Assembly: GCF_014201715.1 (NCBI RefSeq)
Contig: NZ_JACHFD010000001.1
Coordinates: 310,001 to 374,000 of the forward strand
DNA from: Haloferula luteola
Lineage (GTDB): Bacteria; Verrucomicrobiota; Verrucomicrobiia; Verrucomicrobiales; Akkermansiaceae
Length of the DNA: 64,000 nucleotides
Direction of reading: 5' to 3'
Position 1 is the first letter of the stretch; every line of letters begins with the position of its first letter. Positions 28,893-39,471 of the stretch are shown piece by piece. Below the pieces are notes generated by a model. That model searched no databases. It was not told the DNA's origin and was given only the letters and a program-made list of their open reading frames with translations. The position numbers were made by a program, and so were the translations under genes.

Positions 28893-31412
28893 ATGAGGTT
28901 CGCCGCCGCCCTGCTCTTCCCAATCCTCCCGCTCGCCGCTCAGGACGTTCTTCCGGAGATGAATGGGGCCCCGCCCTCCATTGGCCCGATCACGCCGGTC
29001 CCGTTGCCGACCGATTCCGACATCATGCTCTCCGAGGAGATCCAACCGGAGATGCCCAAATCGGTGAATCTCAGCTTCGAAAAAGGTTGGGAAGCCGACA
29101 CCAAGGCCAAGGTGATCACCGCCCTTGGACCGATTTCCGCCACGGGTGACACCGGCATGGCCCTCCGCTCAGACCATGCGAAATACCTTTGGGAGGAGAA
29201 GAAACTTGAGGTCACGGGCGCGGTCAAGCTGCGCACCGAAACCGGAGTGGAAGTATTCGCCGATCGCGGGGTCCTTGATGACACCCAGCAGTTGCTGACA
29301 CTCACCGGAGATGTCTCGATTTACCAAGGCCAGACCGTCCAGCGCGGCAAAGAGGTCGTCTACAACATCCAAACCGGGAAACTGGATTTCTCGGGCCTCC
29401 GCACTGGCGTCGATCCTTTGCTTCTGGAAGCCGATGGCTTTGTCCGCGAAATCACCCCAAATGGCGGTCAGGTCTTTGTAGGACAACACGCGGGAGTCAC
29501 CACCGATGACTCGGAAAACCCCGGATTCTGGGTTCGAGCCGACGAAACCCGCGTCTATCCGGATGACCGCGTGACCTTCAAAAACATGAAGATCTACGCG
29601 GGAGACACCCCCATCTTCTGGCTCCCCTACTTTGCCCAACCTCTTGATGCCGATCTCGGTTACCATTTCGTTCCAGGTGGACGCAGCAACTGGGGAGCCT
29701 ACCTCCTCAACAGCTATGGGGTGATGCTCGGTGAAGAAGACGATCCCTGGCTGCTTTCCCGCTGGAAGCTCGATTTGAGAAGCCGTCGTGGTGCCGCTCT
29801 GGGCCTCGATCTTGTCGACCGCAACCAAGAACGTACCAACAAGAACCTTGAAGGCCTCTCGCTGTATTATGCGAACGACCTCGATCCCACCATCTCTCGA
29901 ACCGGTTTGTCCCGCGGGATCGTCAATGAAGACCGCTGGGAGGCATCGCTGAAATACCGGGTGCCCATGGGGCTCGAAGGTGGTGACAAATGGCGCACGG
30001 ACTACAACCTGCACCTGCTGAGTGACAAATACTACATTGAGGACTTCGACCCTCAGCTGTTTCGTACGGATCCAGCTCCCGACAACACCATCGGCCTCTT
30101 CCGCCAGGATGACGAGTCCTTGTTCGGTGTCATGGCCCGGTTCCAGCCAAACGACTTCTACCGCTCGGACACCCGCCTCCCGGAAATCACCTTCGATCAA
30201 TCTCGTCGCCCGATTTTTGGCACCTCGGTGCTTCATGAAGGCAACACTTCGTTCTCCATCATCGAAGAACGCATCGGCAGCACCGCCCAAATCAATGCCC
30301 GCACCCTGCTGGGCCTCCCGGCAACCAGCCCTCAGGCGGAAGCCATCTACAACAACCTGCCCATCTACGAACGACAACTCGTTCAGACCATCCGCTCTCT
30401 CCCTGCCGGCAGCCCTGCCATCCCGGCCCTCACCAGCCAGCTCCTCAACCCTGGCTACTCACGTTTCCACACCTACCAGGAACTCTCCCTTCCCACGAAG
30501 CTGGGCGGTTGGCTGAATTTCACTCCGGAAGTCGGCGTCGGCTACACGCGCTACGATTCCATCGAAGGACCTCTCGATTCATTGGACCGCCCCCTGTTCT
30601 ACGCAGGTGCCGAAAGCTCGGTGAAGTTCTCGAAAGACTACGCCGCCGTGGCGGATCGGTTCTGGGGGCTCGATGGCTTACTCCACGTCGTCCAACCCTA
30701 CGCGCGCTTCTCCTTCCTCAGCACCGACGATCCCGACCCATTGTTCCCCGGCATCGATCGCGAAACCTTCTCCACCCGTCCGCGCACCCTGGCACCGGAC
30801 CGCTTCACGGCCCTCGATTCGTTTCGCAACTGGTCGATCATTCGACTCGGCATGCGCAATCACCTCATCACCCGGCGCAACAACCAGAACTTTGAGTGGC
30901 TGTGGATCGATACTTACATCGACGGTTATTTTGACGATCCCGAAGGCCTCGATCGCCGTTTCTCCAACCTCTACAACGACGTCACTTGGAATCCCCTGCC
31001 GTGGCTGAACTTCCGCCTCGAAACGCAATTTCCGGTGGTCGATGACGGCTCGGGATATTCTGAAGTCGCCGCCCGTGTGAACTTCATGCCGACGGAAAAC
31101 TTCGAATTCTCCATTGGCAATCGAATCCTCAACAACCACCCGATCGTCACCGATTCGAACCGGATCGACGCCAAGGCATTCCTTCGCCTCAACGACAAGT
31201 GGGGCCTCGGTGCCACTCAGATCTGGGAACTCGACGATGGCACGTTGGAACTCCAACAATATACCATCCACCGCGACTTCAATTACTGGATCGGCTCGGT
31301 CGGCATCACCACCCGCGACAACCGCCTCGATACCGAGTTCGGCATCATCTTCGCTTTCACTCTCAAGGATTTTCCCTCGGCCTCCGTGCCCTTCTCTCTC
31401 GACGCCCAATGA
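28893..31412 (+). CDS. lptD: LPS-assembly protein LptD-like (OstA) outer-membrane protein
   Basis: 839 residues. A signal peptide (MRFAAALLFPILPLAAQ) leads into an OstA/LptA-like N-terminal domain (residues about 60-200: ATGDTGMALRSDHAKYLWEE, TGAVKLRTETGVEVFADRG, QQLLTLTGDVSIYQG). A long beta-barrel follows with the LptD hallmarks FKNMKIYAGDTPIFWLPYFA, LGYHFVPGGRSNWGAYLLNSY and many aromatic strand ends. It would insert lipopolysaccharide into the outer leaflet with LptE. Verrucomicrobial LptD is divergent from that of Proteobacteria, so I assign the family with more confidence than strict orthology. The stop overlaps the start of the next gene by four bases. Confidence 0.82.
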   Translation: MRFAAALLFPILPLAAQDVLPEMNGAPPSIGPITPVPLPTDSDIMLSEEIQPEMPKSVNLSFEKGWEADTKAKVITALGPISATGDTGMALRSDHAKYLWEEKKLEVTGAVKLRTETGVEVFADRGVLDDTQQLLTLTGDVSIYQGQTVQRGKEVVYNIQTGKLDFSGLRTGVDPLLLEADGFVREITPNGGQVFVGQHAGVTTDDSENPGFWVRADETRVYPDDRVTFKNMKIYAGDTPIFWLPYFAQPLDADLGYHFVPGGRSNWGAYLLNSYGVMLGEEDDPWLLSRWKLDLRSRRGAALGLDLVDRNQERTNKNLEGLSLYYANDLDPTISRTGLSRGIVNEDRWEASLKYRVPMGLEGGDKWRTDYNLHLLSDKYYIEDFDPQLFRTDPAPDNTIGLFRQDDESLFGVMARFQPNDFYRSDTRLPEITFDQSRRPIFGTSVLHEGNTSFSIIEERIGSTAQINARTLLGLPATSPQAEAIYNNLPIYERQLVQTIRSLPAGSPAIPALTSQLLNPGYSRFHTYQELSLPTKLGGWLNFTPEVGVGYTRYDSIEGPLDSLDRPLFYAGAESSVKFSKDYAAVADRFWGLDGLLHVVQPYARFSFLSTDDPDPLFPGIDRETFSTRPRTLAPDRFTALDSFRNWSIIRLGMRNHLITRRNNQNFEWLWIDTYIDGYFDDPEGLDRRFSNLYNDVTWNPLPWLNFRLETQFPVVDDGSGYSEVAARVNFMPTENFEFSIGNRILNNHPIVTDSNRIDAKAFLRLNDKWGLGATQIWELDDGTLELQQYTIHRDFNYWIGSVGITTRDNRLDTEFGIIFAFTLKDFPSASVPFSLDAQ

Positions 31413-32753: not shown

Positions 32754-33434
32754 TCAAATCACCGCCCCACCCGGCAGGCGCTCTTCCAACTTGCCATCAC
32801 ACATCCAAAGCGTGCGATCTCCCCGTTGCGACAATGCAGGATTGTGGGTGACCACCACCAAGGTCGTTTCGTTTTCCCGGGCTAGATCCAACAACAAGCC
32901 CATCACCTCTTCACTGTTTCGGGTGTCGAGGTTCCCGGTGGGCTCGTCCGCGAATAACACCGACGGCTTGCCGCTGATGGCACGAGCGATCGCGACCCGT
33001 TGTTGCTCGCCACCGGAAAGCTCGGCGGGCAGGTGCTCCGCACGCTGCGCCAAACCCACTCGCTCCAGCGCCTGCAACCCCCGCTCCCGAGAATCCACGC
33101 CACCTATCGCCCCGGGGACCATCACATTCTCAAGTGCCGTCAGTTCCGGAAGTAACAGATAGTTTTGAAAAATGTATCCGACGTGACGATTCCTAAAGGC
33201 CGCCTGCTTCCGTCCCCCAAGTGCATAGAGGTCCGTTCCGGCAATCACCACCGAGCCCTGTTGGGGTTTCTCCAACCCGGCAAGGGTATAGAGCAGGGTC
33301 GTTTTTCCAGCGCCACTCGGCCCACAAAGAAATACGCTTTCCCCTTTCTTGAGGTGGAGATCCACACCATGCAGAACCTCGATCGACTTGGGCCCGATCC
33401 GGTAGCTGCGGTGGAGATTCGTCGCTTCAATCAT
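32754..33434 (-). CDS. ABC transporter ATP-binding protein (LolD/MacB type) without a nearby permease
   Basis: 226 residues with Walker A GPSGAGKT, the Q loop in YIFQNYLLLPELTALENV, the ABC signature LSGGEQQR, Walker B VLFADEPTGNLD and the H loop in VVVTHNP. The length and EPTGNLD motif fit the LolD/MacB/FtsE group that drives extracytoplasmic rather than import tasks. No MacB/LolC-like permease is encoded nearby. It begins 13 bases after the ATP-grasp ligase gene on the same strand, so it is almost certainly the last gene of that operon. Its partner is either elsewhere or one of the multi-TM proteins of the operon. Confidence 0.93.
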   Translation of the reverse strand: MIEATNLHRSYRIGPKSIEVLHGVDLHLKKGESVFLCGPSGAGKTTLLYTLAGLEKPQQGSVVIAGTDLYALGGRKQAAFRNRHVGYIFQNYLLLPELTALENVMVPGAIGGVDSRERGLQALERVGLAQRAEHLPAELSGGEQQRVAIARAISGKPSVLFADEPTGNLDTRNSEEVMGLLLDLARENETTLVVVTHNPALSQRGDRTLWMCDGKLEERLPGGAVI

Positions 33435-33447
33435 CGTGCCTTATCCT

Positions 33448-34428
33448 TCACCCTTCCTGAATCGGAGCAAAACGATTCTTTGAAAACAAAAGGCGCTCCG
33501 CAGGCGTTTCTCCCGGGTGCTTGGCTCTCCGTTCCGTAATCGGTTCCAACCGTTTCAAGAGGCCCACACCATTGGCCAACTGAATCGCCAGACCAGGCCG
33601 GGCATTCACCTCGATCATCAAGGGGCCACGGTTTTCGTCGATCATCAGATCCACTCCCAGATAGCCGAGGCCGGTCATCTCGTAACACTGAACGGCAATT
33701 TCCAAAATCCGCTCCCACTCAGGAACCGTCACCCCTACCAACGGAACTTTGAGATCCGGGTGCATCTTCACCGCTCGCCCGTGGTGCACCGCATGCACGG
33801 TTTTTCCTGAGCGGATATCCACCCCGATCCCCAGGGCACCTTGGTGCAAGTTGGATCGTCCGTCCGATTCACGGGTGGAGGCCCGCAACATCGCCAGGAC
33901 CGGATACCCGTGGAACAACACCACACGAATGTCAGGAGCGCCCTGAAAGCTGATCGAGGTCATCGTCTTCTCCGGGGCCACCTTGTATTCGATCAGGGCG
34001 GTGTCGCGCTTTCCACCCAAACTATGAAGCCCTGCAAGGATGTTCTGAAGATGGTTGCGCACATCCCCCACGGAGAGCTGAGCGCCACTCGGCTTCAAAT
34101 ACATGCCGTCTTCACGCCCAGCGATCACCAGCACCCCTTTTCCGCCTGAACCACGAGTCGGTTTGATCACAAACGACTCCCGTCCCTCCAGCATTCGCTC
34201 AAAATTCCGGACATCTCCTGGATTCGTGACCACGCCGTAGGTTTCAGGAACCGAAATTCCGCGTTCCACCGCCAATGATTTGGTCCGCACCTTGTTGTCG
34301 ACCAGATCATACAACTTGCGCGGGTTGCTCGGGAGCACGTAGCGCGCATTGCGCATGTTGATCCCCACCACACCCATCTCTCTCAGTTCCGCTGGCGTGC
34401 GGAACCATCGGTGCCACCAACGTGTCAT
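33448..34428 (-). CDS. Alpha-L-glutamate ligase-like ATP-grasp protein (RimK-related)
   Basis: 326 residues. The ATP-grasp fold is marked by FVIKPTRGSGGKGVLVIAG, DIRVVLFHGYPVLAMLR, GLGYLGVDLMIDENRGPLMIEV and NARPGL, which carry the ATP- and magnesium-binding residues. RimK-like ligases add glutamate or other amino acids to an acidic C-terminus or peptide. Its N-terminal part (MRNARYVLPSNPRKLYDLVD) is the form found beside inactive-transglutaminase membrane proteins. Its start overlaps the stop of that gene by four bases (34425-34428). It is cytoplasmic. The acceptor substrate is unknown. Confidence 0.9.
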   Translation of the reverse strand: MTRWWHRWFRTPAELREMGVVGINMRNARYVLPSNPRKLYDLVDNKVRTKSLAVERGISVPETYGVVTNPGDVRNFERMLEGRESFVIKPTRGSGGKGVLVIAGREDGMYLKPSGAQLSVGDVRNHLQNILAGLHSLGGKRDTALIEYKVAPEKTMTSISFQGAPDIRVVLFHGYPVLAMLRASTRESDGRSNLHQGALGIGVDIRSGKTVHAVHHGRAVKMHPDLKVPLVGVTVPEWERILEIAVQCYEMTGLGYLGVDLMIDENRGPLMIEVNARPGLAIQLANGVGLLKRLEPITERRAKHPGETPAERLLFSKNRFAPIQEG

Positions 34429-35966
34429 GCTGCGGTTTCGAAGTTTTTGAAGCGCATCAGCTCACTGAGGCGATAACCCGTATAGCGCCCGATCAGGATG
34501 ATGCCACCCAGCAGCACCAACAGCAGCTCGGGGAAGTAAAATGCCCAATAGCGGATCTGCCGCATCTCCATCACGGAGAAGGCCACCACCGCCACAAACA
34601 AAGACCCACCCACCTGCAGCAAGGCACTGCGCTTGCCCTCCTCCTCCCAAATCAGGGACATCCGCTCGATGGTCCAAGCCAGAATGATCATCGGGAATAG
34701 CGTGATCTTGAGCCCATCACGCATCCCCAACCGCCAACTCACGACGCTGAGCACCATCATCAGCAAGGTCACAATCACCACACACGCGGCCACCCGCGGC
34801 ACCACGAGCAAATTGAGCCGCGATAAGAGGAAACGGAACCACAATCCCGCACCAATGATCACCGCAAACATGATCAATCCGCTCTGCAAGGGCATCTCCA
34901 ACAATGAAAGTGCCAGCAACACCGGCATGAAGGTTCCCAAGGTGGCAATCCCCACGATATTGCGCAGCAAGACGACCACAAAAGCCCCGATCGGAATCAA
35001 CACGACAAAACGAAATACCTGCCGCTCTGATGCCGGAAGCGCCAAAATGGTGGCAACCAAAAGACTCGATTCCCTCAGGTCGGTTTGGCGCTCGATCGGG
35101 ATCAAATCCCGTGTCGCCGTGAAAACGATGCTCGAATTCTCAGCCCCTTCGTTCACTTCAAACAACGCGTCCCCGCCACGATTCCAGACAAAGATCTGGT
35201 CAGGACGCAATTCGTCCGTCGGCTTGTCTGGATTGCGGATTTTCCAGTGAACCCCATCGAAATACTCGACCAGCAACAAGGCCTCCTGGGGCCCTCGCAT
35301 TTCCTCCAGACGCACTCCGTAGGCCATCCGCGCCGGAATCCCTGCGAGCTTGAGCAAGTCCACGCCGAGGGAGATCAGTCCGCGACGCTCGTCTTCATCC
35401 GCATATGCCCGCTTCAACAGGGAGATCTCTTGGGACGACTCCAACGCCGTAATTTCCTGGAAGATTCCGACGAATCGACTGTCGGGCGACGAAGAGAATT
35501 CGCTGACTCGCCGGACCACACTTTCCGCCGCCTCGCGCGCGTTGCGTGTCAGACCTGGATCCACTGCTTTGGGAAGATCCCCTGAGACGGACACCGGACC
35601 CGCACTGTTGACGCCGGATTCGGGAAATCGCACGCGATAGTAGAGCGCTTGAGGTCCTTCGACCGAATCCGCCTCCCAAACCGCTGACAAGTTGCCGCTG
35701 GCATCAGCTTCCGTGCGGAAACTGTAGCCCGACGATTGGGCATCAATTCCCAGATCCCGAGTGATTTCCGAGGTCGGCAAAGCCAATCGCACACTGACCG
35801 GCTCCCCGAAAGCCGCGAAGGTGATTTTCGATTCCACCAACCATTCCGTTGAGGCCTTCCCCACCTTCAGGGGGATGCCGATCACGATATGTTTGTAGGC
35901 GGCGAGCCCGCCCCCGGCGAGGACCAGAAACGCGACAATCGCGAACAGCTTGAAACGAGCGCTCAT
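34425..35966 (-). CDS. Inactive transglutaminase fused to a multi-TM membrane domain
   Basis: 513 residues. One N-terminal helix, then a periplasmic region of about 300 residues with a transglutaminase-like core (SLGVDLLKLAGIPARMAYGV, LLLVEYFDGVHWKIRNP), then seven predicted membrane helices from about residue 325 on. The transglutaminase nucleophilic Cys position is Arg and the soluble part has no Cys at all; the usual His and Asp are also replaced (Leu, Asn). This matches the known 'inactive transglutaminase fused to 7TM' family. It probably binds peptides or a modified protein at the inner membrane. Both neighbours are its standard partners. Confidence 0.88.
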   Translation of the reverse strand: MSARFKLFAIVAFLVLAGGGLAAYKHIVIGIPLKVGKASTEWLVESKITFAAFGEPVSVRLALPTSEITRDLGIDAQSSGYSFRTEADASGNLSAVWEADSVEGPQALYYRVRFPESGVNSAGPVSVSGDLPKAVDPGLTRNAREAAESVVRRVSEFSSSPDSRFVGIFQEITALESSQEISLLKRAYADEDERRGLISLGVDLLKLAGIPARMAYGVRLEEMRGPQEALLLVEYFDGVHWKIRNPDKPTDELRPDQIFVWNRGGDALFEVNEGAENSSIVFTATRDLIPIERQTDLRESSLLVATILALPASERQVFRFVVLIPIGAFVVVLLRNIVGIATLGTFMPVLLALSLLEMPLQSGLIMFAVIIGAGLWFRFLLSRLNLLVVPRVAACVVIVTLLMMVLSVVSWRLGMRDGLKITLFPMIILAWTIERMSLIWEEEGKRSALLQVGGSLFVAVVAFSVMEMRQIRYWAFYFPELLLVLLGGIILIGRYTGYRLSELMRFKNFETAA

Positions 35967-36038
35967 ACGAAGAACGAAAAACCCTCACACGGGTCGATGA
36001 AAGAAGGCCCCTCCAAGAGGCCCTCGGGGGAAAACCCA

Positions 36039-36755
36039 TTATCGCAAGACCTTCTTGTCCGCAAGGTAAGCACGGCTCGGATCCACCCAGCCCAGCTCCT
36101 TGATGGTCTTCCGACCGATCAGCACGGGACTGAGCATGTTCGACCGGTTATTGAGGGTGAACTCTGCCTTCAGGCTACGCTCGCCGATTTTGAAGCGCAG
36201 AAGCACCGTCTCGCGGGCTTCCGATTCACCCGCCGGCTCCTTGATGTGCGCGATGCGGACCAACGGAGCCTCCATTTGCATGCGCTTGGAATCTTTATTC
36301 TGAGGATTGGTCACGATGAACCGCACCCACTTCCGGCCATCCCGCTCAAAGAGATGCTTTTCCTCGCAATGAATCGAGCTGGTGAGAGCACCGGTATCCA
36401 ACTTGGCCGGAAACTTCTCCGATTCGTTCTCATTCTCCAGCACCACCCATTCTTTCCATCCGTAAACCTGAACGGGATCACCATTGACCGGGCGTGCCAC
36501 CGCCGCCTCAACCTCACGATTCTCTTCCTCTTCAAGGTCGATCACCACCTCTTCATCCGCTTTGGCTGCGGGCTCCGTATCGACGGCGTCCTTATTTTCG
36601 CCCTCTTTGGCCTCGGATTTTTTCGGTTCTTCCGCCACCTCCGCTGCAGGAGTGGGCTCATTTTCCGCCTTTTCCTCGGCAGCCCACAACCCTCCGCCCT
36701 TGCCAAGAAAAACGAGGCAGGCCATCCACGTAACGAACTGTCGATTGCTGATCAC
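36039..36755 (-). CDS. Retropepsin-like protease of PF05618 (RimK/LysX-associated, often called ATP-dependent zinc protease)
   Basis: 238 residues from a GTG start at 36755; an ATG ten codons later would leave a truncated signal peptide. Residues 1-25 are a signal peptide. Residues 26-90 are a very acidic, Ala/Glu/Lys-rich linker. From 98 on the PF05618 fold appears: YGWKEWVVLE, KLDTGALTSSIHC with DTGA at 120-123 (the aspartic protease catalytic motif), and VLIGRKTIKELGW. The name 'zinc protease' is historical; the sequence looks like a retropepsin. It is periplasmic and starts the operon with the transglutaminase-like and ATP-grasp genes. It probably cleaves the peptide tag or the tagged protein. 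Confidence 0.85.
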   Translation of the reverse strand: MISNRQFVTWMACLVFLGKGGGLWAAEEKAENEPTPAAEVAEEPKKSEAKEGENKDAVDTEPAAKADEEVVIDLEEEENREVEAAVARPVNGDPVQVYGWKEWVVLENENESEKFPAKLDTGALTSSIHCEEKHLFERDGRKWVRFIVTNPQNKDSKRMQMEAPLVRIAHIKEPAGESEARETVLLRFKIGERSLKAEFTLNNRSNMLSPVLIGRKTIKELGWVDPSRAYLADKKVLR

Positions 36756-36787: not shown

Positions 36788-38197
36788 ATGCAACGGAATT
36801 CACGAGCTTATCCCGGCATACTCAGCGCCTCGATCCTGCTAGTTACAGGCTGCTCCCCCCTCACTTTCCGGACTCCTGTCAGTTCCTTACATGGCTCCCC
36901 GCCTGCTTCATGGGAAAACTCCCTGACCGGCCATTCCGGCCGCATCAGCACCGGTTGGCTGGAAACGTTTCATGATTCCGACCTGATGGCCACCGTCGAT
37001 GCCGCAATGGATCGCAACCAAGACCTCGCAGCGGCTGCGGCCCGCATGCGAGCCGCCAAGTACCAGCAACTCGCCGGTCGAGCCCGCGTGAAACCGGACG
37101 CCTCACTCCTCACTTCGGGCAGCGTCAGTCGCTCCGAAAATGGTCGCGCCCCCGCCCAGAGCTCGGAAAGCTACGGCCTTTCCCTGTCCACCTCATGGGA
37201 ACTCGATGTTTGGGGTCGACTGCGCGATCTCAACGCCGCCGACGAAGCGGACCAAGTTGCGACCGAAGCCCTGTTCCGTGGTGCCCGACTTTCGTTGGCC
37301 GCCTCCACCGCCCGCAGTTGGTGCAACCTCATCGCGGCCGAACAACAACTCGAACTCGCTCACATCACTCTCGATTCTTTCCAGCGCAACCTGCGCATCA
37401 GTGAGCGCAACTACAAGGGCACGGGCCAAGGGGCTCTGGACGTTCAATTCGGCCGGACCAATGTCGCTTCTGCCCAACGTGATTTGGAGTCGCGACGCCT
37501 GGCTCGCGATGAAGCCGCCCGTACTCTTGAGGTTCTGACTGGCCGATTCCCGGCGGGAACCACCCGGGCCGGGCATGAATTGCCTACCTTGCCCAAGAAA
37601 GTCCCCGCTGGACTGCCGTCGGAACTGCTGGATCGACGACCCGATCTGACCGCCGCCCGTGCCTCGCTGCTCGCCAGCGCGCATCGCGCCCATGCCAGCC
37701 GGAAGTCGTTGCTCCCTTCCCTCAGGCTCACGTCCTCGGCAGGAACCCCTGTCTCCGGATTCTCCCAGCTCCTCAATCCCGATTGGCTGGTCGCTTCCAT
37801 CGGGGCGAATCTCGTGCAAACCCTCGATACCGGAGGGGCGCAGAAGCTGGAAGCCCGGGCAGCACTCGAACAAAATCAAGCAGCCGTCCACGACTACCAA
37901 CAGGTCGCCCTCACGGCTTTTCGCGAGGTCGAATCGGCCTTGGATGCCGATCAATCCCTCGCCCGGCAGGAGGACTTTCTCGTGGCTGAAGTCGAACAGG
38001 CCGCTCTCGCCGAGCGTCAATCCACTCGCGACTACGCCGATGGCATCGAAGGCTCTGACATCCTCGATGTCCTTGAAGCCCAACGCCGTGCCAACAACGC
38101 CCGTTCCAGCCTCATTCGCCTGCGCAACGAGCGCCTCCTCAATCGCATCGATCTCCATCTCGCACTCGGCGGAGATTTCAAAACTCGCGGGGCCTGA
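36788..38197 (+). CDS. Outer-membrane efflux lipoprotein (TolC/NodT family)
   Basis: 469 residues. A signal peptide ends in the lipobox LVTGC (Cys about 22), so the protein is a lipoprotein of the NodT/OprM group. Two outer-membrane efflux repeats follow: WLETFHDSDLMATVDAAMDRN to VLTGRFPAGTTRAGHELPTLP and VPAGLPSELLDRRPDLTAARA to NERLLNRIDLHLALGG. The usual conserved GLPSELLDRRPD is present. It would form the outer-membrane tunnel of a tripartite exporter. It starts only 32 bases from the start of the divergent retropepsin gene. The membrane-fusion protein gene follows after 68 bases, but no RND or MacB pump gene follows. Confidence 0.93.
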   Translation: MQRNSRAYPGILSASILLVTGCSPLTFRTPVSSLHGSPPASWENSLTGHSGRISTGWLETFHDSDLMATVDAAMDRNQDLAAAAARMRAAKYQQLAGRARVKPDASLLTSGSVSRSENGRAPAQSSESYGLSLSTSWELDVWGRLRDLNAADEADQVATEALFRGARLSLAASTARSWCNLIAAEQQLELAHITLDSFQRNLRISERNYKGTGQGALDVQFGRTNVASAQRDLESRRLARDEAARTLEVLTGRFPAGTTRAGHELPTLPKKVPAGLPSELLDRRPDLTAARASLLASAHRAHASRKSLLPSLRLTSSAGTPVSGFSQLLNPDWLVASIGANLVQTLDTGGAQKLEARAALEQNQAAVHDYQQVALTAFREVESALDADQSLARQEDFLVAEVEQAALAERQSTRDYADGIEGSDILDVLEAQRRANNARSSLIRLRNERLLNRIDLHLALGGDFKTRGA

Positions 38198-38265
38198 AGC
38201 AACATTTCCGGCCCGTCTTCGTATTTGGCAAAACTCCGCTTTCCGTCGACATTCCGCCGCCCCAC

Positions 38266-39471
38266 ATGCTCACCCGCATCATCATTCCCATTCTCGTCCT
38301 CTGCGCTGGCGCCTTTTTCGCCTGGCGTTTGTCGATTCCGGAAGCTCCTCCGGAAATCGAGCATGTTGAACCCCAGAAGCTGAAGACGGAAATCGTGGAA
38401 CTCGAATCGGTCGATTTCCCCGTCCTGCTCGATTCTCAAGGCGTGGTGCGAGCCCACCACGAAACCCCACTCACCCCCACCATCAGCGGCACGATCGTCG
38501 CCATCCATTCGCCCTTCGAAGATGGAGCTTTCTTTAAAAAAGGCGACATCCTAGCCGAACTCGATCCAGCAGACTACACGGCAGCACTCGAAAGCGCACG
38601 CTCGCGCCTGGCCCAGGCGGAGGCCGCTCTCGCCCAAGAAGACGCTCGCGCTCGTCAGGCACGCCTGAACTGGGAAGACCTTGGCTACGAGGAAGCCCCC
38701 TCCGATCTCGTTCTTCGGGTCCCTCAACTCAAGGAGGCCCGCGCCAATGTCGACGCCGCCAAGGCGACCCTTGATCAAGCCAGCCGCGATCTCGATCGCA
38801 CCAAAATCCGCGCTCCCTTCGACGGCCGCGTCCGCCAACGCCTCGTGGGACTCGGTCAAGCTGTCGGCGCCTCCACCGAACTCGGCACAGTGTTTGCCAC
38901 CGATTTCGCGGAGATCCGCCTGCCGCTCACGCCCGCTCAACTCGGCTTCATCGATCTCCCCGCGCACGAAGGGGATCCGGCGGTTCCGGTGACCTTGGTC
39001 GATGCTCTCGGTGAGACCACCCGCGAGGCCCCGACCACCTGGTCCGCCCGCATCGTCCGCACCGAAGGCACCCTCGACCCCTCTTCGCGCGAGCTTTTCG
39101 TGATCGCGCGCATCGACGATCCCTTCGGCCTCCACTCCGACCACCCTCCCTTGCGCATCGCCCAACCGGTGCGCGCTTCGATCGTCGGTCATACCCTCCA
39201 CAACGTCTTTGTCATCCCACGGAACTCCCTCCGTGGCGTCAACGTGATCTACCTCGTCGATCCCGTGGAGTCCGCCATCGTTCGCCAAGAGATCGACCCC
39301 ATCTGGTCGACCGCCACTCAACTGGTGGTCGATCAAGGTCTCGAAAACGGCCAGTGGCTCGCCATCACCCGCCTTCCCTACGCCCCGAACGGTGCCCCAG
39401 TGCAGATCCTCGACTCCACGGAGCCAGCGGACATCGCCACCACTCCGGAGAAAGAAAGCGCCGATTCCTAA
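38266..39471 (+). CDS. Efflux membrane-fusion protein (HlyD/RND adaptor family)
   Basis: 401 residues, with one N-terminal membrane anchor (IIIPILVLCAGAFFAWRL). The lipoyl half-motif SGTIVAIHSPFEDGAFFKKG, the helical hairpin (YTAALESARSRLAQAEAALA to LDQASRDLDRTKI), the second lipoyl half RAPFDGRVRQRLVGLGQAV and the beta-barrel (RASIVGHTLHNVFVIPRNSLRG) are in the usual order. It would bridge an inner-membrane pump to the outer-membrane tunnel encoded just upstream. The next gene is a LysM protein, not a pump, so the transporter partner must lie elsewhere. Two hairpins follow the stop. Confidence 0.93.
   Translation: MLTRIIIPILVLCAGAFFAWRLSIPEAPPEIEHVEPQKLKTEIVELESVDFPVLLDSQGVVRAHHETPLTPTISGTIVAIHSPFEDGAFFKKGDILAELDPADYTAALESARSRLAQAEAALAQEDARARQARLNWEDLGYEEAPSDLVLRVPQLKEARANVDAAKATLDQASRDLDRTKIRAPFDGRVRQRLVGLGQAVGASTELGTVFATDFAEIRLPLTPAQLGFIDLPAHEGDPAVPVTLVDALGETTREAPTTWSARIVRTEGTLDPSSRELFVIARIDDPFGLHSDHPPLRIAQPVRASIVGHTLHNVFVIPRNSLRGVNVIYLVDPVESAIVRQEIDPIWSTATQLVVDQGLENGQWLAITRLPYAPNGAPVQILDSTEPADIATTPEKESADS

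Follow-up and report, generated by a model that had tools for sequence, protein, structure and literature searches.

Gene content of the locus

The DNA analysed here, hereafter the window, is a stretch of 64,000 nucleotides from Haloferula luteola, a member of the Akkermansiaceae (Verrucomicrobiota), and corresponds to positions 310001-374000 of contig 1 in a genome of 4.9 Mb (84 contigs, 95.5% complete). It harbours four genes, all on the minus strand, encoding in this order a retropepsin, an inactive transglutaminase with seven transmembrane helices, an ATP-grasp ligase and an ATP-binding cassette (ABC) ATPase. A first-pass annotation had presented them as a candidate for an undescribed system in which the ATPase energises the seven-helix protein as part of an exporter or a maturation machine. 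With a probability of about 0.8, we consider the locus to be an rlo-type operon of the Verrucomicrobiota followed by lolD, the ATPase pairing with a distant LolF permease and not with RloB; the four genes probably lie side by side without forming a single new machine. The features are as follows.

36039..36755, minus strand: RloA-like secreted retropepsin (PF05618, 130 bits; GTG start)
34425..35966, minus strand: RloB-like inner-membrane protein, inactive transglutaminase plus seven transmembrane helices (PF14402, 287 bits; PF14400, 95 bits)
33448..34428, minus strand: RloC-like ATP-grasp ligase, alpha-L-glutamate ligase-like (TIGR02291, 392 bits; PF14397, 283 bits)
32754..33434, minus strand: ABC ATPase, most likely the LolD of a LolF-LolD transporter and probably outside the rlo mechanism (PF00005; TIGR02211 is the best NCBIfam model)

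The order, strand and coordinates given by the first-pass annotation were confirmed, its naming agrees with both Pfam and NCBIfam, and the 13 bases that it counted from the stop of the ligase to the start of the ABC gene are indeed there; rloA and rloB are separated by 72 bases, and rloB and rloC overlap by 4 bases (-4). The ABC gene also lacks an adjacent permease of its own, as had been noticed, since none of the six FtsX-type permease matches of the genome adjoins it. On the other hand, the short acidic precursor peptide that had been suggested near the operon was not recovered, the four small open reading frames between the genes being not acidic.

The first three genes and the published rlo operon

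The earlier reading of the first three genes was correct, and the set they form has now been published as the rlo operon, described in 2025 in mBio for Pseudomonas aeruginosa as the three-gene operon rloABC (PMC12239564); as such, it is not an undescribed system. In that species, RloA cleaves poly-glutamate in vitro, the loss of all three RloA proteases causes sensitivity to hypo-osmotic conditions, growth under these conditions is restored when rloB or rloC is lost, and the substrate of RloA is reported as unlikely to be genome-encoded (PMC12239564). The last report fits the genome studied here, 95.5% of which is represented and contains no run of eight glutamate codons. The term "ABC transporter" does not appear in the main text of the same paper (PMC12239564). 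Both loci encode the same three protein types, i.e., a secreted retropepsin, an inactive transglutaminase with seven transmembrane helices and an ATP-grasp ligase, and they differ in that the host is here one of the Akkermansiaceae, RloA bears a long acidic linker, RloA and RloB score below the cut-offs of their named models, and lolD comes next in one genus.

RloC exceeds the cut-off of TIGR02291 (392 vs 314 bits) and matches the model of the ribosomal S6 ligase with only 42 bits (cut-off 331). The cassette thus resembles the RimK-RimB pair of S6 glutamylation in combining an ATP-grasp ligase with a retropepsin cleaving poly-glutamate, but RimB resides in the cytoplasm and no RloB is depicted at the rim locus in the description available (PMC12239564), whereas the present RloC poorly matches the S6 ligase model. 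In RloB, PF14400 and PF14402 both exceed their cut-offs, and the "inactive" state of the transglutaminase rests on the family name. A structure model of RloB (predicted local distance difference test, pLDDT, 78) is transglutaminase-like over residues 40-289, with a Z score of 13.6 to 3isr and of 7.2 to TgpA in a fold search. This periplasmic domain alone was clearly matched; matches of the transmembrane part to 7zc6 (Z 5.9) and 5khs (Z 4.3) were weak and were not used.

RloA aligns to the solved chains 9g59, 9g58 and 2pma and exhibits a KLDTGA active site, a signal peptide as judged by eye and an acidic, low-complexity linker. The D-T/S-G pattern was found in 59 of 60 RloA proteins of the family and phylum, and by a looser pattern in the remaining one (L060; L, G and f numbers designate loci, genomes and families, respectively). 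The linker, long in the window and in most of L031-L069 and absent in L037, extends from the signal to the protease domain and often terminates in a patch rich in glutamate and aspartate ahead of an ARPVSSD-like motif, and may act as a tether or as a pseudo-substrate. Outside the family, the RloA of L166, L174, L175, L182 and L188 present by eye an apparent lipoprotein signal with its cysteine, which the RloA of the window does not have.

Distribution of the cassette and of the four-gene order

PF14402 was found in 40 of the 117 genomes sampled for the family, and all 40 cassettes (39 loci and the window) were examined. RloA, RloB and RloC follow one another in every one of them, and the ABC gene lies behind RloC in ten, all belonging to the genus of the window. 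This genus was represented by 14 genomes, of which 12 carry the cassette; the two cassettes without the linked ABC gene are those of G039 and G101. The survey of gene order that the first-pass annotation had called for thus gave two answers. Within the genus, the four genes do occur in this order, and not through an accident of one assembly, as 10 of the 12 genomes with the cassette share it, window included; they may be co-transcribed there. Outside the genus it is absent: no ABC gene stands behind any of the other 28 family cassettes, downstream of which at least 683 bp could be read (L041, at a contig end; the next shortest stretch is 2.1 kb).

Similarly, among 288 genomes sampled across the phylum, 34 encode PF14402; of these, 25 are not members of the family, and all 25 loci were examined. 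Three, including one whose contig ends 235 bp past RloC, were excluded as unreadable downstream, and the ABC gene was found behind RloC in none of the 22 readable cassettes, for which the shortest stretch was 0.96 kb. More distant ABC matches behind the cassette in L188 (42% identity, about 2.9 kb) and L165 (47%, about 3.2 kb) were not counted as orthologues. RloB and RloC are present in all 25 loci, RloA was found in 20 and was missed at the usual strength in five. In L163, L167, L169, L171, L189 and L190, RloA is not directly before RloB or is represented by a weak match further upstream. A further scan returned 42 cassette loci, some of them short and several on the same contigs as the family set, which it overlaps; nine have the linked ABC gene, including those of Haloferula rosea and Luteolibacter marinus.

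The ABC ATPase and its occurrence

Among 197 NCBIfam matches of the ABC ATPase, the LolD model TIGR02211 ranks first with 241 bits. The gene is widespread in the family, with a match at E <= 1e-55 in 109 of the 117 genomes, and is kept in 71 of the 77 genomes without the cassette as well as in 38 of the 40 with it. When the best candidates (up to 25) of each genome were scored, the first match reached at least 58% identity in 106 of the 117 genomes (its own included) and second matches did not exceed 50%. In a tree of the ABC proteins (66 rows, with a midpoint root for drawing), the solitary ATPases form one group of 41 (100/99), and those of the genus one group of 14 (99/95) within which linked and unlinked copies are intermixed. 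The ABC gene is most likely lolD, encoding the ATPase of a LolF-LolD transporter, the two genes having separated in this lineage.

A lone LolC/E-type permease and the probable separation of lolF and lolD

Five of the genome's six FtsX-domain matches have an ABC match nearby. The remaining one, at positions 403868-405490 of contig 1 (541 amino acids; L093:5866-7491), is found 60 kb from the ABC gene and has no such neighbour. A LolC/E-type permease without an adjacent ATPase is thus present in the same genome, which speaks for the pairing elsewhere that the first-pass annotation had named as the outcome contrary to its own proposal. The closest solved relatives of this permease are LolE and LolF, and it occurs in 115 of the 117 family genomes. 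Both genes are retained in two genomes of 0.9 Mb.

Linkage of the two genes was met outside the family: among 78 genomes of the class with an ABC match, 47 have this match directly behind the permease, at 11-132 bp. In the other 31 the ABC match is not beside the permease. For 15 of these (families f2, f10, f15, f19, f25, f27, f29 and f38) it shares 52-59% identity, lolF and lolD being apart there too, and for the remaining 16, with matches at 44-50%, paralogues may be involved. In loci of relatives, no LolD-like ATPase was seen within a few kb on either side of the permease in 26 of 27 cases, the exception being L200 at about 2.4 kb. Conversely, with the permease of the window genome as query, none was found beside the ABC orthologue in 27 family loci of other genera (L070-L089, L095-L101); in seven of them, the neighbours or near neighbours of the ABC gene, identified by family models, encode GspE/GspF-type proteins (L080, L081, L097), an enolase (L087, L096), a cyclophilin-type protein (L089) and a MatE protein (L088).

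The system therefore resembles the LolF-LolD transporter as outlined in a review (PMC11784454) by the presence of the ATPase, of a single LolC/E-type permease and of a LolA-family protein, this last being a loose sign as the family also matches two archaea of the control set. It differs in that its genes are unlinked and its permease bears an extra stretch. This stretch, of roughly 100-120 amino acids, lies where the permease aligns with the Hook of E. coli LolC (L191-L215, L218 and L219 compared), which has been placed at residues 168-178 (PMC10865981). In 12 family loci the permease is matched co-linearly along its whole length of 541 amino acids, and in 15 loci of other families over only about 416-449 codons.

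According to the same review, lolF and lolD share an operon in all bacteria (PMC11784454), a rule that would fail in this family if the ATPase is LolD. The separation does not extend to the whole phylum, because in Methylacidiphilum two lolD genes are listed with numbers consecutive to those of lolE or lolCE genes (PMC10260701). A literature search retrieved no paper joining Verrucomicrobi, lolD and LolF.

Proposed functioning of the locus

In the reading that we favour, the cytosolic ATP-grasp ligase RloC would make or attach poly-glutamate, RloB, at the inner membrane, would handle this product by means of its inactive transglutaminase domain, and the secreted RloA may trim poly-glutamate in the periplasm, by analogy with the in vitro activity of its P. 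aeruginosa counterpart. LolD, for its part, would pair with the single LolC/E-type permease, LolF, 60 kb away and supply the energy with which outer-membrane lipoproteins are released to LolA; we do not propose that RloB is energised by it. We base this pairing on the family models, on the linkage seen elsewhere in the class and on co-occurrence. The usual lolF-lolD operon would have come apart in this lineage, and the loose lolD, having settled behind rloC in one genus, may share the rlo transcript there.

Several observations weigh against this reading. The ATPase remains below the equivalog cut-off of the LolD model (241 vs 308 bits), and the name LolD is consequently drawn from context; its best match of solved structure is E. 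coli YbbA (203 bits), above LolD (182 bits). In the tree, the deeper forks are weak and give no strong support for joining solitary and permease-linked ATPases; E. coli LolD groups with three paralogues of the window genome (86/84), and the linked ATPases of one family group with E. coli YbbA (88/89). The linked ATPases of the class share about 44-51% identity with that of the window, compared to 49% for one of its paralogues in the same genome, so that their orthology rests on context. The permease matches best the lolCE model TIGR02212 but stays below its cut-off (241 vs 362 bits). Moreover, none of the 107 family genomes that encode both has the ABC gene next to the permease, not even the 15 where they share a contig (closest pair, 18 kb), and for this reason we can only infer their pairing here. 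On the rlo side, RloA reaches 115 bits with its best NCBIfam model, RloA3 (cut-off 210), and the NCBIfam RloB match, which spans residues 5-509 and nearly the whole model, reaches 275 bits (cut-off 900). These two scores are the reason for the label "rlo-type", and by its sequences the set is not an exact named NCBIfam subfamily. Finally, the tight spacing between rloC and the ABC gene is also compatible with a working unit, and none of the window genes beyond lolD (encoding a DUF2383 protein, a nitroreductase-like protein and LptD) was matched in the 14 loci examined, so that the conserved block ends at lolD.

Alternative explanations

The alternative that survives best is compatible with the reading above. 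LolD would serve LolF, and its position in the rlo operon would tie the capacity for lipoprotein release to an rlo envelope-stress response in the genus; we regard this as rather doubtful. It has in its favour the short rloC-lolD gaps, which range from -4 to 32 bp in nine of the ten linked family loci. In strain HM13, disrupting a gene annotated as an inactive transglutaminase with seven transmembrane helices led to more vesicles, and envelope phenotypes are described for rlo mutants of P. aeruginosa (PMC12239564). However, the gap widens to 112 bp in L051, the tenth of these loci, and to 52, 281 and 258 bp in L129, L156 and L159 of the further scan, and G039 and G101 do without the link. With gaps as short as -4 bp and as long as 112 bp in the family loci, and reaching 281 bp in those of the scan, a shared rlo-lolD transcript appears likely for some species but doubtful for others. 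The promoter search found no sigma-70-like promoter in the locus. A terminator-like match is present in the rloA-rloB gap, although such matches are no commoner than in shuffled sequences (7 vs 5.0, standard deviation 2.0).

A second possibility, that the ATPase is of YbbA or MacB type and not LolD, is improbable in our view. It is suggested by the solved structure of YbbA cited above and by the YbbA model, which is second among the NCBIfam models (225 bits, against 241 for LolD). Yet no double permease of the size of YbbP was seen, the six FtsX matches lying in frames of 384-554 amino acids compared to 2415 bp for E. coli ybbP, and of the 648 positions of the MacB model only the ATPase part was matched.

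The proposal of the first-pass annotation, in which the ABC ATPase would energise RloB within a four-part exporter or maturation machine, is very improbable. It could draw on the four-gene order of the genus, on the 13 bp of the window and the similar gaps of its relatives, and on the conserved block, which on that side extends no further than the ABC gene. The distribution of the ABC gene across the family and phylum led us to reject its product as the motor of RloB: cassettes outside the genus do without the gene, and most family genomes without the cassette retain it. The presence of a lone LolC/E-type permease leaves the proposal further unsupported. Both outcomes that the first-pass annotation had itself named as refuting were thus observed, the lack of conservation beside the cassette applying outside one genus. 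The P. aeruginosa operon comprises three genes (PMC12239564), and the length of RloB is unaffected by the ABC gene, with 510-518 amino acids beside it and 493-523 overall (104 proteins, some contigs counted twice). The fold matches listed for RloB include no ABC permease, which shows nothing as the search covered mainly residues 40-289. On the rloA side, each of 14 loci examined, 11 from the genus (including two that lack the ABC gene) and L129, L156 and L159, has matches to the efflux and HlyD-like neighbours; gene order is thus conserved there in general, which weakens it as evidence of function on that side but not on the lolD side. As for a LolD that in this genus would power LolF and also dock on RloB, coupling the export of poly-glutamate or of a poly-glutamylated substrate to lipoprotein traffic after the lolF-lolD split and the extra stretch of LolF had freed the ATPase, we hold it for a long shot.

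Significance

With the assignment proposed here, the locus is no longer a candidate "new machine", and its cassette joins a system whose genetics have been published. A further implication is that an entire bacterial family can have lolF and lolD at separate loci, contrary to the general statement of the review (PMC11784454). The case also shows that the gene beside an ABC gene may mislead as to its partner. With the extra stretch of its permease at the position of the LolA-recruiting Hook, the family would be a natural test of LolA recruitment.

Flanking genes

On the lolD side, a gene for an LptD-type outer-membrane protein (PF04453) is encoded on the opposite strand at window positions 28893-31412, 4 kb from the cassette, and was unmatched near the cassette in 14 relatives. 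On the other side, window positions 36788-39471 encode an outer-membrane efflux protein and a HlyD-like protein, divergent from rloA and with no inner-membrane pump gene directly after. The efflux gene alone was matched in L031, L033 and L035.

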